Shown: piece by piece, positions 51,285 through 55,990 of the stretch
How the letters are laid out: the number at the start of each line of letters is the position of its first letter
How positions within the stretch are numbered: position 1 is the stretch's first letter
Assembly: GCF_013342985.1 (NCBI RefSeq)
Contig: NZ_CP054490.1
Coordinates: 558,001-622,000 of the forward strand
DNA: 64,000 nucleotides
Source of the DNA: Candidatus Ruthia endofausta
GTDB taxonomy: Bacteria > Pseudomonadota > Gammaproteobacteria > PS1 > Pseudothioglobaceae
Direction of reading: 5' to 3'
Position numbers and translations under genes: made by a program
The notes under the pieces: model-generated
Seen by the model: only the letters and a program-made list of their open reading frames with translations
Database searches by the model: none
What the model was told of the DNA's origin: nothing

Positions 51285-53006
51285 ATGCAATACAAACAAT
51301 TCATCTCTCATTTATTTATTTATTTAAAGCCACACGTTGGAAAACTTATCTTTACTTCAGTCATGATGATGTTGGCAACAGTGCTTGAGAGTTTGGTGCC
51401 AGAAATCACAGGCAGAATTGTTGATGAGTTGTTTGCAACTGAACGTGAATCAAAAACTGCGTTTATTTATGCTTTTGCTCTGTTTGGTATTGTTGTTCTT
51501 AGTTCACTATTTACACTTACTTCTACTGCGGTTAGTTCTTGGGTGTCAAACAAAATGATTATGGATTTACGTATCACCATGTTTGCTAAATTATTGAAAT
51601 TATCTAAGTCGTATTTTGATCAACATCCTACGGGGAAAACGTTATCTAAACTCACTTTTGATGTTGAGCAAATTGCAGCCAGTGCCTCAACTATTTGGCT
51701 GGATTTTATTAAATCATCAATGACTGTTATTATCCTAATTGGCTATTTATTTTATAAAAACTGGCAATTGAGTTTAACTCTTTTAGTGCTTTTACCGCTG
51801 GTGTATTTAGCCGTTAAACTCTCCTCTAATCGCATGCGTCGTTCGAGTGTTAATGTACAAAAATCAATGGGTGATATGACGCATTTACTTAATGAAAATA
51901 TTTCTGGTAACACCTTGGTTAAGATTTATCACGCCCAATCCCAAATAAGTGAAAAATTTAACAGTTTGATTAAAAATATCCGTCAACAACGTTTTAAAGT
52001 TGATATGACCAGTAGTTCTAATACCGCTTTTATTAATGTTTTAATTGGGTTATCTTTAAGTAGCGTGGTGTATCTTTCCTCTACTTCACTACAAATGAGT
52101 GCAGGTGAGTTTTTGTCTTTTTTCACTGCCATGGGTATGCTACTTAAACCTGCCAAAAGTTTGGTCAATATTAACAAACCTTTACAAAATGCAATGGCAG
52201 CAGGTGAAAGTGTGTTTGGGCTTATTAACGAAAAAGAAGAATCTAATGCTGGCACTAAGAAACTAAAAGAACCTAAAGGTGCCATTCAATTTAACGACGT
52301 ATCATTTGCTTATAACAATAATACGACCGTGCTTAAACGTATCAATCTAGACATCAAACCAGGTGAAACAATTGCATTTGTTGGTGCAACAGGCAGTGGC
52401 AAAACCACTATTATTCAATTATTGATGCGCTTTTATTCGCCAAAACAAGGCTCTATCACTATTGATGGTGTCGATATTAACCAGTTTGAAATTGATTCAT
52501 TGCGCTCAAATGTTGCCTTTGTTGATCAAAATGTGCAACTATTTAATGACTCTATTAGAGGTAATATTGCTTTGGGACAACTAGGCACCATGCCAGATAA
52601 ACAAATCAAACACTCAGCAATTGCTGCCAATGCTGATGAATTTATTCAACAACTAGAACATGGGTTCGATACACAAATTGGAGAAAATGGCGTATCACTT
52701 TCAGGCGGCCAACGCCAACGACTTGCTATTGCAAGAGCAATTGCTAAAGACAGCCCTATTTTAATTTTAGACGAAGCCACCTCAGCATTAGACAGCACTA
52801 CCGAAAAACAAGTGCAAAATGCAATCCATGAAATGCAAAAAGACAGAACCACTATTATTATTGCCCATCGACTAAGCACCATTCAAAAGGCCGACCGCAT
52901 TATTGTACTGCGCCATAGTAGTATCATTGAACAAGGCACTCATCAAGAACTATTAGACCATCAAGGTGAATATGCTCAACTGTACAAGCATCAATTTGAG
53001 GATTAA
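51285..53006 (+). CDS. msbA: Lipid A export ATP-binding/permease protein MsbA
   Basis: ABC half-transporter flipping lipid A-core across the inner membrane. The 573 residues show six hydrophobic helices in the first ~310 residues, then the nucleotide-binding domain: Walker A FVGATGSGKTTIIQLL (about 363-378), Q-loop VDQNVQLFNDSI, signature VSLSGGQRQRLAIARAI, Walker B ILILDEATSALD and the H-loop IIAHRLSTI. Assignment to MsbA rather than another exporter rests on the overall type-1 exporter pattern. Downstream lies a gene graveyard. Confidence 0.88.
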   Translation: MQYKQFISHLFIYLKPHVGKLIFTSVMMMLATVLESLVPEITGRIVDELFATERESKTAFIYAFALFGIVVLSSLFTLTSTAVSSWVSNKMIMDLRITMFAKLLKLSKSYFDQHPTGKTLSKLTFDVEQIAASASTIWLDFIKSSMTVIILIGYLFYKNWQLSLTLLVLLPLVYLAVKLSSNRMRRSSVNVQKSMGDMTHLLNENISGNTLVKIYHAQSQISEKFNSLIKNIRQQRFKVDMTSSSNTAFINVLIGLSLSSVVYLSSTSLQMSAGEFLSFFTAMGMLLKPAKSLVNINKPLQNAMAAGESVFGLINEKEESNAGTKKLKEPKGAIQFNDVSFAYNNNTTVLKRINLDIKPGETIAFVGATGSGKTTIIQLLMRFYSPKQGSITIDGVDINQFEIDSLRSNVAFVDQNVQLFNDSIRGNIALGQLGTMPDKQIKHSAIAANADEFIQQLEHGFDTQIGENGVSLSGGQRQRLAIARAIAKDSPILILDEATSALDSTTEKQVQNAIHEMQKDRTTIIIAHRLSTIQKADRIIVLRHSSIIEQGTHQELLDHQGEYAQLYKHQFED

Positions 53007-53179
53007 TGTTTAATAACAATCATTTTATGCTCAAACATATCATGCATAGTATGATTAATGCTGGAATTTGCCTTGCAATCCCGCTTTAATGGATTTTTGT
53101 CCTGTAATGGTTACCAATTAGTATCACACTAATTGAGCATAAGCAATAGCAGTAACTTAAGTTACTTGCATCTGAACCT

Positions 53180-53770
53180 AACGTTGAAACACACACCAGC
53201 TTTGCCGGTTAAGCGCCCATAAGTTGCTGCCACGAATTTCAGCAATTTTCTTGGTTACTTTTTCCTTTGGTAAAATACCGCTCTTACCTGCTTTGGTACC
53301 TTGACTCATCTTAATTTCAAACATTTTCACTTGGTTATACGCAGCCCAATCTTAAGCAATTTTTCATCGCTTAATTTGCCCATTTCATCACGCACGCCAT
53401 ATTTAGCCGTGCCAATTTGAAAAACAATATCTGTACCACCTTCGTCTGTGCTGTGCCAACAATTTGCCATTCTTGCACCATTTGACAATGCCAATACCAC
53501 AGGCCTTGAAATGGCATCAAAACTCATACCTGATATATTAAAAACTGATTTTGCCCGATAAGGTTGTTTACAAAAATTCCTTCCAATAGTAATAGAGCGT
53601 GTCTGTGTCTCTATAGCCATCTTCATCTAAAGTAGGAAAAGGACAATTAGCAAAAAGTACCGTACCAAATAGGATTGAGATTTTTAGTTGAGTCAAATGC
53701 AACTGTAGCATTGTTGTTATTTCCTGCTCTATGCGCCCAATCTCTCTGCACGGTTAAAGGGCATTTTCAT
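53180..53770 (-). pseudogene. FMN-binding glutamate synthase-like protein, remnant
   Basis: Pieces resemble the FMN-binding domain of the stand-alone GltB-like (YerD-type) family: CPFPTLDEDGYRDTD, an open frame at 53327-53626 with SVFNISGMSFDAISRPVVLALSNGARMANCWHSTDEGG and DIVFQIGTAKYGVRDEMGKLSDEKLLKI, then, one frame over, QVKMFEIKMSQGTKAGKSGILPKEKVTKKIAEIRG. About 300 or more residues are missing, including the Fe-S cysteine region. Decay may extend to 53050. Confidence 0.85.
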
Positions 53771-53789
53771 TTTCATTGATAGCTCCTTT

Positions 53790-54235
53790 TTATTAACAAT
53801 ATTTCTTACAAATTAAATGGTCCAATGACAACTTTTCCTGCCCATAAACAAGCGTTAATAGCAACATAGTACCCTAAAGCTTATGATCATAAAATCCACC
53901 TTCCCACAAAACAGGATAGGACAGCCACTGCAATAATATTAAATAAAAACAACATGAGTGCTGTTAAACGTGTTGCCAATTCAAGCAGTAAAAATATAGG
54001 TAAAACAGGCTCTGCTGCTGTACCTAAATAGACTACTGACTCCCAAAGAATAAAGGGTGCGTTGTATCTGATTCAAATAGATATAAGGTTAAATCCCAAG
54101 CATTAAGTTTAATCTAGCCAGCACGAAAAAAAGCATCTGCAACATGGAGACGCACAAATAATTTAAGAGAATCGTTGCTAAATATATAGATTTTGTTAAA
54201 AACTGTATTACGTAAATAAAGTAATTTTTTCCATT
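53790..54235 (-). pseudogene. DoxX-family membrane protein (BufD-like), remnant
   Basis: In mixed frames: LFVRLHVADAFFRAGWIKLNAWDLTLYLFES near the start, HPLFFGSQ, and the strongly typical SYPVLWEGGFYDHKL followed by GTMLLLTLVYGQEKLSLDHL at the end. This is the standard pattern of DoxX proteins that sit next to DUF692 and DUF2063 genes. Several frameshifts and stops. It is the 3' member of the dead DUF692 cassette. Confidence 0.8.
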
Positions 54236-54373
54236 TTCTCCCCCTGGTGTTAAGAAATCTAACTGACTTATTTTACTAACCACGATTTCTAATTTTCTCT
54301 TGGCTATTAGAATATACTGCGCTTGCTTATTAATAACATCATTAGAGAAAGTGGTTTGGATGACTTTAAGCAT
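54236..54373 (-). pseudogene. DUF2063-like (BufC) N-terminal remnant
   Basis: An ATG at 54373 overlaps the end of the DUF692 remnant and opens MLKVIQTTFSNDVINKQAQYI, the position and start style of DUF2063 proteins, the usual partner of DUF692. After about 40 codons the sequence passes straight into DoxX-like text, so at least 200 codons are deleted. Assigned mainly by position. Confidence 0.4.
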
Positions 54374-55015
54374 TGAGTGTCTTTTGCGCTCCACCCAATA
54401 AAACTGATAAAGCTAATAAAGCTAATAAAGCTGGAATGTTATTATCCCACTCAATTAGAGTAGGTTTTTGACCAAACTTTTGAATAGTTTTTTAGTACAA
54501 ATTCCACACCTGCTCACTTACTTTAGAGCCGTGGTCATCAATATAGACATCGCCTTTCTCATAAGTGTTTATCGCATACCCTGCTAGATGAATCTCAGCC
54601 ACATCCTCACTATTAACAGCATTTAAGCAATCAAATACATCATAAGCAAAATTTTGACAACTGACATAAATATTATTAATATCAAGCAATGACCCGTAAC
54701 CTGTTAAGCTGGACGATTGACCATTAATATCCCCCCCAATTCAAATGCTCGGAAAACAGTTTTGGCTTATATCTATTAATAGCGCGCTTTAGCTGGTTTA
54801 AATGATTCTGATTCAACTTATCGAACGAGCCTAAAAACAATCCAACGCCGTACAAACTTAATGGATAATGTTGCGCTATTTCCTCTACTTGATAAGTATG
54901 CTTACCTTGAGAGAAGAAATTTTCAGCATGTACTTCTAATCTGGCTTTTCATCAACAAATTGTACCAAATTCTGATGTCTTAATCCTATGCCAACACTAT
55001 TGGATGTTATTATCA
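54366..55015 (-). pseudogene. DUF692 / MNIO-family iron enzyme (BufB-like), inactivated
   Basis: Successive pieces follow the TIM-barrel family in order: VGIGLRHQNLVQFV, RLEVHAENFFSQGKHTYQVEEIAQHYPLSL, GSFDKLNQNHLNQLKRAINRYKPKLFSEHLNWG, LLDINNIY-type MLDINNIYVSCQNFAYDVFDCL, and EDVAEIHLAGYAINTYEKGDVYIDDHGSKVSEQVWNLY, where TAA (54492) interrupts before KTIQKFGQKPTLIEWDNNIPALL. Members are multinuclear iron oxidases that modify cysteines of RiPP precursors. A 9-bp unit AATAAAGCT is tandemly repeated at 54406-54432. Confidence 0.88.
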
Positions 55016-55059
55016 AAACTTCCGTCAAGGTTTTTTGACCCTACCAGTACTTTAGTGAC

Positions 55060-55440
55060 ACTTAAACCTTTATCAATTCAACCATTATTAATACCGCCAC
55101 TCAATTCAAGAATATGTTGATAATCTATTTTGGTATCTAAAAACCTACCAATAATCTTGGTACGATTGGAGTGAGCGCAAACCAAAATAAATGGCGTACC
55201 TTTGGTCTTAACAATGTTAGATAAATTGCTTAGCCACTTTTGCATGTTGTAATTACCTCTGTTGTCAAAAAATGTTAACTTAAGTGTAGCAGGAATAATG
55301 CCATATTTATCGACTTCATCTTGTCTTCAAACATTAATAATTACAACACCTTCAGCTATTTTTTCTTCTACTTTCTTAGTTGAAAGTGTTGTAGAATCAG
55401 CAAAATCTTCTATTAGCAATTAGATTTTTTAAGTGAGCTT
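55060..55440 (-). pseudogene. Rhodanese-domain protein, inactivated
   Basis: A single-domain rhodanese-like sequence: STKKVEEKIAEGVVIINV, a TGA, RQDEVDKYGIIPATLKLTFFDNRGNYNMQKWLSNL, then PFILVCAHSNRTKIIGRFL, HILELSGGINNG, a TGA where Trp is expected, and IDKGLSVTKV. The active-site loop CAHSNRT still has its Cys. Two in-frame TGA codons replace likely Arg/Trp positions, so it died by point mutation. It lies just 5' of the DUF692 remnant. Confidence 0.8.
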
Positions 55441-55990
55441 GAACAAGAACAAACTCATCAACAGCTCAGTGCCTAAAACAAATCAAACCACCTTGTTGTT
55501 TGATTTGTTTATCAAGTAATATTGTGTTTATTGAACCATCTTTAAAAGTAGCTATCTTAATTAAATGTTAGATGCCAATGCCCAATATATTAGCCGCCTT
55601 GTCTAACGGACAATGCACATTTACATTGACAAAGGCAAATAAAGGTTTCTTGATTAAATAGCCCTTACTTTTTACCTCTTTCAATGCCTGGTTACGCGCA
55701 ACCATTATGGCAATCATATTGGCATTACTCGACCTTCTTGTCATTTGACCTTTGCCGTTTTTAAAGCCTACTATATCAAGTATTTGCTCAATCATATATT
55801 TTTTCCATTAACGTCGCAACAGGTTCAGATTCAAAAGTGCAACGTGAAGTATTTGCTCAGTGCAGTCACAATTTCATCCACAATGGAGGGTTGATTGGCG
55901 CCCGACCACATACGATTGGCAAAATTAGGATGGCTAGTATTAGGAGAATATTCTAAAATAGAAAAGATATATAAGGGGCCTTGCTGCACT
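55441..55990 (-). pseudogene. PLP-dependent group II decarboxylase, remnant
   Basis: N-terminal half of a PLP decarboxylase (aspartate/glutamate/diaminobutyrate type): SHPNFANRMWSGANQPSIVDEIVTAL, a break near 55850, then an open frame 55568-55795 (QILDIVGFKNGKGQMTRRSSNANMIAIMVARNQAL, FAFVNVNVHCPLDKAANILGIGI), a stop, then HLIKIATFKDGSINTILLDKQIKQQGG. The PLP lysine region is missing. The substrate cannot be told. It lies immediately 3' of the TrpD2-like gene. Confidence 0.8.

Follow-up and report, generated by a model that had tools for sequence, protein, structure and literature searches.

Remnants of a probable Buf1-type bufferin operon of a rhodanese-containing variety in Candidatus Ruthia endofausta

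One locus in the genome of Candidatus Ruthia endofausta (1,188,809 bases, a single contig), whose genus we infer to comprise vesicomyid clam symbionts, raises the question of which system its broken genes once formed, and in what order and how often that system was lost. In this work, we are presenting an analysis of a window of 64,000 nucleotides, which contains, on the minus strand at 53.8-55.0 kb, broken genes for an MNIO enzyme (DUF692), a DUF2063 protein and a DoxX protein. A sequence-only reading had interpreted them as a fossil of three genes, at 53790-55015, from a dead bufferin-type operon which became useless in the host.

Remnants were detected by searching with the proteins of G051 (locus L028), an intact relative, in tblastn and with the genes of sister species in blastn (Table 1). 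The four DUF692 motifs reported earlier (EVHAENFF, SEHLNWG, EIHLAGY and IDDHG) are all present in minus-strand frames, as is the DoxX motif SYPVLWEGGF. The three genes stand where they had been placed, but five further operon remnants had been missed, and the whole fossil spans about 53,003 to 55,490. It is flanked on one side by an intact ABC transporter gene (51,285-53,006) and on the other by a PLP-decarboxylase remnant.

Table 1. Parts of the fossil locus (window coordinates)
Feature	Position	Strand	Evidence
ECF sigma remnant, divergent	55412..55490	+	blastn 84% G005, 79% G007, E 1.7e-20 / 1e-14
Deletion junction, expected site of the DUF2282 precursor and YgaP-like_TM (DUF2892) genes	55402..55416		comparison with G005
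Rhodanese remnant, stops and one frameshift	55036..55401	-	tblastn 60% over 122 aa vs G051, E 4e-48
MNIO (bufB-like) 5' part, about residues 1-99, frameshift	54716..55031	-	NF050167 BufB, E 3.2e-22
MNIO 3' part, about residues 166-264, internal stop	54411..54733	-	NF050167 BufB, E 3.4e-22
DUF2063 (bufC-like) 5' remnant	54318..54414	-	blastn 88% G005, also G007
DUF2063 3' remnant, core between the ends deleted	54219..54327	-	blastn 91% G006, E 6.5e-39
DoxX (bufD-like) pseudogene, stops and frameshifts	53802..54227	-	tblastn 43% over 150 aa, E 2.5e-31; PF07681 6e-6
Glutamate-synthase-like remnant, first codons and about residues 95-273 of 513	53229..53807	-	tblastn, joint E 2.5e-55
Acetolactate-synthase-like TPP enzyme remnant	53062..53236	-	blastn 84% G007, E 4.7e-47
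Aldehyde dehydrogenase, last codons, remainder deleted	53003..53059	-	blastn 96% G007, E 3.6e-22

The MNIO family PF05114 matches three separate fragments in the Pfam search (E 5.9e-19, 9.8e-20 and 1.7e-4, the third at 21.4 bits, under the 25-bit cut-off), and in the whole genome it matches at this locus only. For both large pieces the best NCBIfam model is BufB, with scores under the whole-protein cut-off, as expected of fragments. The profile scan proposed earlier thus succeeded for PF05114 and DoxX and failed for DUF2063, which has no HMM match anywhere in the genome because the core of the gene is deleted; its two ends were found by DNA alignment with sister-species copies. About 66 residues are absent between the two MNIO parts, and the aligned flanks overlap by 18 bases at this junction and by up to 9 bases at that of DUF2063, which fits slippage between short repeats. 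Two symbionts of this kind are described as lacking recA in the available text of PMC3202245. The rhodanese remnant reaches E 0.0014 and 19.5 bits on PF00581, under the cut-off of 22.2, and the glutamate-synthase-like remnant, which tblastn matched over 53748-53229, is additionally matched by PF01645 (5.4e-7) and by blastn to G007. The ECF remnant lies in divergent position, as in intact relatives; against G051 its tblastn match is weak (E 0.028) and stretches weakly to 55517.

Several of the frameshifts involve only one or two bases, and one might ask if they are sequencing errors in genes that are alive. We give this practically no credence: there are deletions of tens to hundreds of bases and stops created by substitution, the precursor gene is deleted, and long open frames flank the locus on both sides. 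The window copy is dead, and no working system can come from it, since the precursor is deleted, the enzyme has lost a part and the other genes bear stops and frameshifts.

The sequence-only reading had remarked that no precursor gene is visible and had suggested looking for one in relatives; the gene is indeed deleted in the window, and a DUF2282 precursor was found upstream of the intact cassette in relatives. PF10048 (DUF2282) has no match in the whole genome of Candidatus Ruthia endofausta. This search and that with PF05114 revealed no intact cassette elsewhere in the genome, which would have spoken against the operon being lost. By tblastn with the G051 precursor, the best window match has E 0.12 and lies far from the locus, at 20.4 kb; it was rejected. 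In G005 a DUF2282 gene, cut by one stop, and a YgaP-like_TM gene still lie between the rhodanese and ECF genes. As the precursor is absent from the window, its type is taken from relatives, and because the DUF2282 gene is gone at the deletion junction (55402-55416), the window copy is to be counted as a fossil of a Buf1 operon and not as a working member. We read 14 Thioglobaceae precursors: four cysteines are present in each of the 13 that have no stop, the G005 copy shows three ahead of the stop which splits it, and EGKCG repeats occur in none of the 14. The relatives' precursor exceeds the PF10048 cut-off, yet obtains 26.7 of 60 bits on the BufA2 model; the N-termini are hydrophobic and, by eye, signal-peptide-like. 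Stand-alone extra DUF2282 genes with four cysteines were also noticed in G013, G053 and G014 (L049, L050, L051), with no MNIO match within 1.5 kb.

The gene families of relatives were assigned by Pfam and NCBIfam. Two named records have a complete row: L057 (Gammaproteobacteria bacterium Gsub, which we take to be a Guaymas plume bacterium) and L061 (Candidatus Thioglobus sp. KZ2-2019). One strand carries a YHS-domain gene, a candidate anti-sigma gene and an ECF sigma gene, and the other carries, in order, DUF2282, rhodanese, MNIO, DUF2063, DoxX, glutamate-synthase-like, TPP-enzyme and aldehyde dehydrogenase genes. The symbiont of Bathymodiolus sp. 5 South (L056) has the row from DUF2282 through the TPP enzyme, reaching the contig ends, and G051 has it from the YHS gene through the glutamate-synthase-like gene within the part listed. 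In intact relatives PF10048, PF00581, PF05114, PF09836, PF07681 and PF01645 thus form one close-packed row on the same strand; in some genomes a small YgaP-like_TM gene precedes the rhodanese gene. For the candidate anti-sigma protein (one tested), Pfam gave nothing up to E 0.01, hence no NrsF match either, and an NCBIfam anti-sigma model matched weakly (1.7e-4, 21.7 of 100 bits).

Two intact MNIO proteins were tested, and they scored 360.5 and 380.7 bits on the BufB model NF050167 (cut-off 310), about 134 bits above HvfB. MNIO enzymes of all types are kin to one another, and the cassette could have made another MNIO product, of the oxazolin/EGKCG or methanobactin type, instead of a bufferin. 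Such a reading could draw on the partner and DoxX proteins of a relative, which match PF09836 (1.4e-22) and PF07681 (1.9e-16) and among NCBIfam models score on HvfC and HvfX alone, under the cut-offs (37 of 142 and 55 of 80 bits, respectively). We consider it very unlikely, as BufB is the best model for the two intact and the two fossil MNIOs and the precursors are four-cysteine DUF2282 proteins devoid of EGKCG repeats. The gene remnants, together with BufB as the best MNIO model, bear out the earlier view that the MNIO, DUF2063 and DoxX genes belonged to a bufferin-type operon now dead, and with high confidence we regard the region as a decayed Buf1-type bufferin operon of a Thioglobaceae variety.

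The copper role, chemistry, export and regulation of the Thioglobaceae operon are inferred by analogy with described systems. In those, an MNIO-DUF2063 pair makes thiooxazoles from cysteines of the precursor, and the exported peptide sequesters copper (PMC12452194 and PMC13097082, available text). The precursor of the intact operon would accordingly be an exported DUF2282 protein with four cysteines; the MNIO/DUF2063 pair would convert the two central ones into thiooxazoles, and the modified peptide would bind copper in the periplasm. The divergent ECF sigma factor, with the candidate anti-sigma protein, would switch the operon on. The genes between precursor and enzyme encode a rhodanese, likely with a signal peptide, accompanied in some genomes by a YgaP-like membrane protein.

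Presence of the operon in the family is patchy, with MNIO matches in 15 of 83 genomes (the order-level search covers the same 83), and its make-up varies. The locus of Ca. Thiodubiliella endoseptemdiera has a truncated MNIO gene and lacks a DUF2282 or DUF2063 match, the loci of the B. brooksi symbiont and of Thiodubiliella TVD4 retain the rhodanese alone, and in the B. azoricus symbiont another frame, of 507 residues, lies between DUF2282 and rhodanese. In G071 (L034) a different MNIO gene is followed by DoxX and by the trio of glutamate-synthase-like, TPP-enzyme and aldehyde-dehydrogenase genes known from the operon; neither DUF2282 nor DUF2063 was matched within the 9 kb fetched, and this trio may be a wider companion of MNIO-DoxX pairs.

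The Thioglobaceae variety is marked by the position of the rhodanese gene. In 7 of 7 Thioglobaceae loci with both a precursor and an MNIO gene (14 DUF2282 loci in all, the broken G005 locus being counted among the seven) it separates the two, against 0 of 24 other gammaproteobacterial loci. The latter come from a class sample in which DUF2282 was found in 96 of 369 genomes; 30 loci were fetched and 24 of them had an MNIO match. With a profile built from Thioglobaceae sequences, no rhodanese match was obtained in these 24, and wherever both genes were seen there is no room for one, because their segments overlap or lie within about 55 bases. Among the family genomes the rhodanese occurs in 19 of 83, including 14 of the 15 with an MNIO match. 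Its N-terminus in intact relatives looks by eye like a signal peptide.

A role of this rhodanese as a general MNIO partner was rejected: an MNIO match accompanies it in 10 of 33 rhodanese loci taken from named genomes, all ten from Thioglobaceae or matching such genomes, and with an MNIO profile from Thioglobaceae sequences no match was found within the fetched stretch of the Campylobacterota and other rhodanese loci. In a campylobacterial MAG (L063:5345-6393) a related rhodanese was observed one gene after a gene whose product resembles, by eye, the YgaP-like membrane protein, again with no MNIO match at the locus. Five of the 83 family genomes (G052, G055, G056, G057 and G080, some of these assemblies being fragmented) have the rhodanese but no MNIO match, and in G010 it has outlasted the MNIO gene; together these findings argue against the rhodanese depending strictly on the bufferin.

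The main text (supplements aside) of PMC12452194, PMC13097082 and PMC12538549 makes no mention of rhodanese, nor does it appear among the matches listed by a literature search on MNIO/DUF692, which covered few subscription papers. The matches listed also held no joint treatment of Ruthia magnifica with DUF692, DUF2063, DUF2282, bufferin or metallophore. As far as the available text of PMC12452194 and PMC13097082 goes, the rhodanese-containing bufferin operon is a variant beyond those described there.

As to the role of the rhodanese, our guess is the handling of sulfane sulfur in a sulfur oxidiser. A bolder proposal, which we offer tentatively and hold to be rather doubtful, is a sulfur-coupled bufferin: the predicted periplasmic rhodanese and its YgaP-like partner would be a working part of the system, acting on sulfane sulfur or polysulfide and thereby sparing copper and peptide thiols from sulfide, with the glutamate-synthase-like protein belonging to the same response. 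If it were true, the independent deaths in clam symbionts, which are transmitted vertically, ahead of the downstream genes would mean a release from the combined copper and sulfide exposure of free-living cells.

Within the genus, an intact MNIO gene is found in 0 of 12 genomes and MNIO remnants in 6 (five by HMM and G003 by blastn). All 12 have the flanking ABC transporter gene; in 10 of 12 it shares the fetched stretch with a TrpD2-like gene (the stretches of G006 and G007 stop short of the TrpD2 side), and all stages of erosion are found between them. The genes of G006 and G007 are broken but almost full length, with cytochrome oxidase genes upstream of the cassette in G006, while G010 has an uninterrupted rhodanese gene with MNIO and DUF2063 fragments, relocated elsewhere in its genome. 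The window species and G003 have scraps only, G008 (which the tree places as sister to the window species) has only a part of the aldehyde dehydrogenase gene, G011 has DoxX scraps with full-length TPP-enzyme and aldehyde-dehydrogenase genes, and in G004 and G009 the genes downstream are present as scraps. At E 1e-4, no trace of the operon was found in G001 and G002 within the interval that the flanking genes bound. A putative copper-type P-ATPase exceeds the cut-off in 11 of 12 genus genomes.

Genome reduction is general in these symbionts (PMC5310779, available text), and the locus erodes because of it; as the sole cause, however, pure erosion was rejected. In G005, G006, G007, G010 and G011 the frames of the TPP enzyme and of the aldehyde dehydrogenase have kept their full length, as has that of the glutamate-synthase-like gene in G010. 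As the bufferin genes of these five species are broken or gone beside such frames, they were lost ahead of their downstream neighbours, which hints at a weaker need for them. In the other seven genus genomes, the window's included, erosion or absence extends to the downstream genes. For the TPP enzyme, the genes of G005 and G010 (L026:3060-4700, L089:7885-9536) have only 71% DNA identity to that of G007, the neighbouring genes 87-90%; a replacement by a foreign allele is possible.

Next to the fossil, the PLP-decarboxylase remnant of the window (55487-55957) has its counterpart in a cluster of relatives (L025:10651-14498), which also encodes a VTT-domain membrane protein (33.2 bits, just under the cut-off), two ATP-grasp-like proteins and a cysteine-dioxygenase-like protein (PF05995, 8e-8). 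The pairing of the latter with the decarboxylase suggests hypotaurine-type synthesis. By DNA alignment, not by frames, all five cluster genes align near full length in G001, G002, G004, G009 and G010, and also in G007; at this locus the cluster is absent or reduced to scraps in the window species, G003, G008 and G011.

Lesions were tabulated for five species (G010 for rhodanese, MNIO and DUF2063 only; the scraps of G003 and G011 were excluded). Each stop, frameshift and deletion of the MNIO and rhodanese genes belongs to a single species, except that G006 and G010 have a stop at the same MNIO codon. Further downstream, a DoxX stop is common to G000 and G007, a glutamate-synthase frameshift to G000 and G005, a 15-bp in-frame deletion in the glutamate-synthase-like gene to G005 and G007, and a 24-bp in-frame DoxX deletion to all four species compared. 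Since the inactivating lesions of the MNIO and rhodanese genes are nearly all confined to one species, they point to several separate deaths; some lesions are shared between species, so an earlier partial loss is possible.

Codon positions were counted without DUF2063, for G010 with rhodanese only and for G006 without rhodanese. The third-position excess is 1.18-2.59 in nine fossil pairs, against 3.10-3.39 in three intact pairs and 2.73-5.83 in ten pairs of the ABC gene; as judged from these sequence counts, constraint is relaxed in the fossils. For G005-G007 the contrast is small (2.00 in the fossil, 2.73 in the ABC gene), and G005-G006 is the least relaxed pair. Because its excess is still 2.59, some constraint persisted past the split of these two.

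An operon already silent in the genus ancestor, with the private lesions as later drift of a dead locus, would agree with the lack of any intact MNIO gene in the genus, the 24-bp deletion in all four species compared and the three inactivating lesions each found in two species. No inactivating lesion, however, is present in every species compared, those of MNIO and rhodanese are private except at one codon, constraint acted after the G005-G006 split and the G010 rhodanese is uninterrupted; we hold a single early death to be unlikely. The enzyme gene seemingly outlived the start of the genus, as the MNIO and rhodanese lesions are nearly all private, and these patterns indicate that the MNIO gene probably died several times, after the radiation of the genus. 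The tree used is midpoint-rooted, with support of 100 for two inner branches and 57-82 for the other seven; the four outgroup loci tried lack both marker genes, and G003, G005, G010 and G011 lack one of them, for which reason there is no rooted tree. The idea that the system became useless in the host is partly borne out: it agrees with the absence of an intact MNIO gene and with the earlier loss of bufferin genes in five species. A simple version of it is opposed by the Bathymodiolus gill symbiont (L056), which retains an open row up to the contig end, and by MNIO and rhodanese lesions nearly all limited to single clam-symbiont species.

Obtained results extend putative copper-binding RiPP operons to Thioglobaceae, including clam and mussel symbionts, and add a rhodanese to their make-up. 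The 12 genomes form a graded series, from near full-length pseudogenes to clean excision, in which one can set the time of loss of a single metal-stress system beside the mode of transmission and the reduction of the genome.

YgaP, a membrane rhodanese, consists of a rhodanese domain and a transmembrane domain. The same combination of rhodanese and YgaP-like_TM domain is found in G005, G007 and G069 as two adjoining genes; they differ from YgaP in being separate, in the signal-peptide-like N-terminus (by eye) of the rhodanese and in their place inside a bufferin operon. With the oxazolin/EGKCG (Hvf) operons the Thioglobaceae operon shares an MNIO, a DUF2063-type partner and a DoxX-type protein, whereas its precursors are free of EGKCG repeats and its MNIO fits the HvfB model far worse than the BufB model. 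The closest resemblance is to the Buf1 bufferin operons (bufABCD), also termed gig operons, whose products are called captophorins in PMC13097082 (available text). Their precursors have four cysteines (PMC12452194), and sigma and anti-sigma genes accompany them (PMC12452194, PMC13097082); according to the available text of PMC12452194, the bufABC order is strictly conserved and other conserved genes occur in extremely low proportions. The Thioglobaceae operon has the same order of DUF2282 precursor, MNIO, DUF2063 and DoxX, with an ECF sigma gene close by. It differs in the glutamate-synthase-like, TPP-enzyme and aldehyde-dehydrogenase genes downstream and in the rhodanese, sometimes together with the YgaP-like_TM gene, that separates precursor from MNIO; it may also differ in the anti-sigma protein, as Pfam matched the one candidate tested neither to NrsF, which is found in Buf1 operons, nor to any other family. 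The bufABC order is maintained despite this insert, a gene which the available text of PMC12452194 does not describe.
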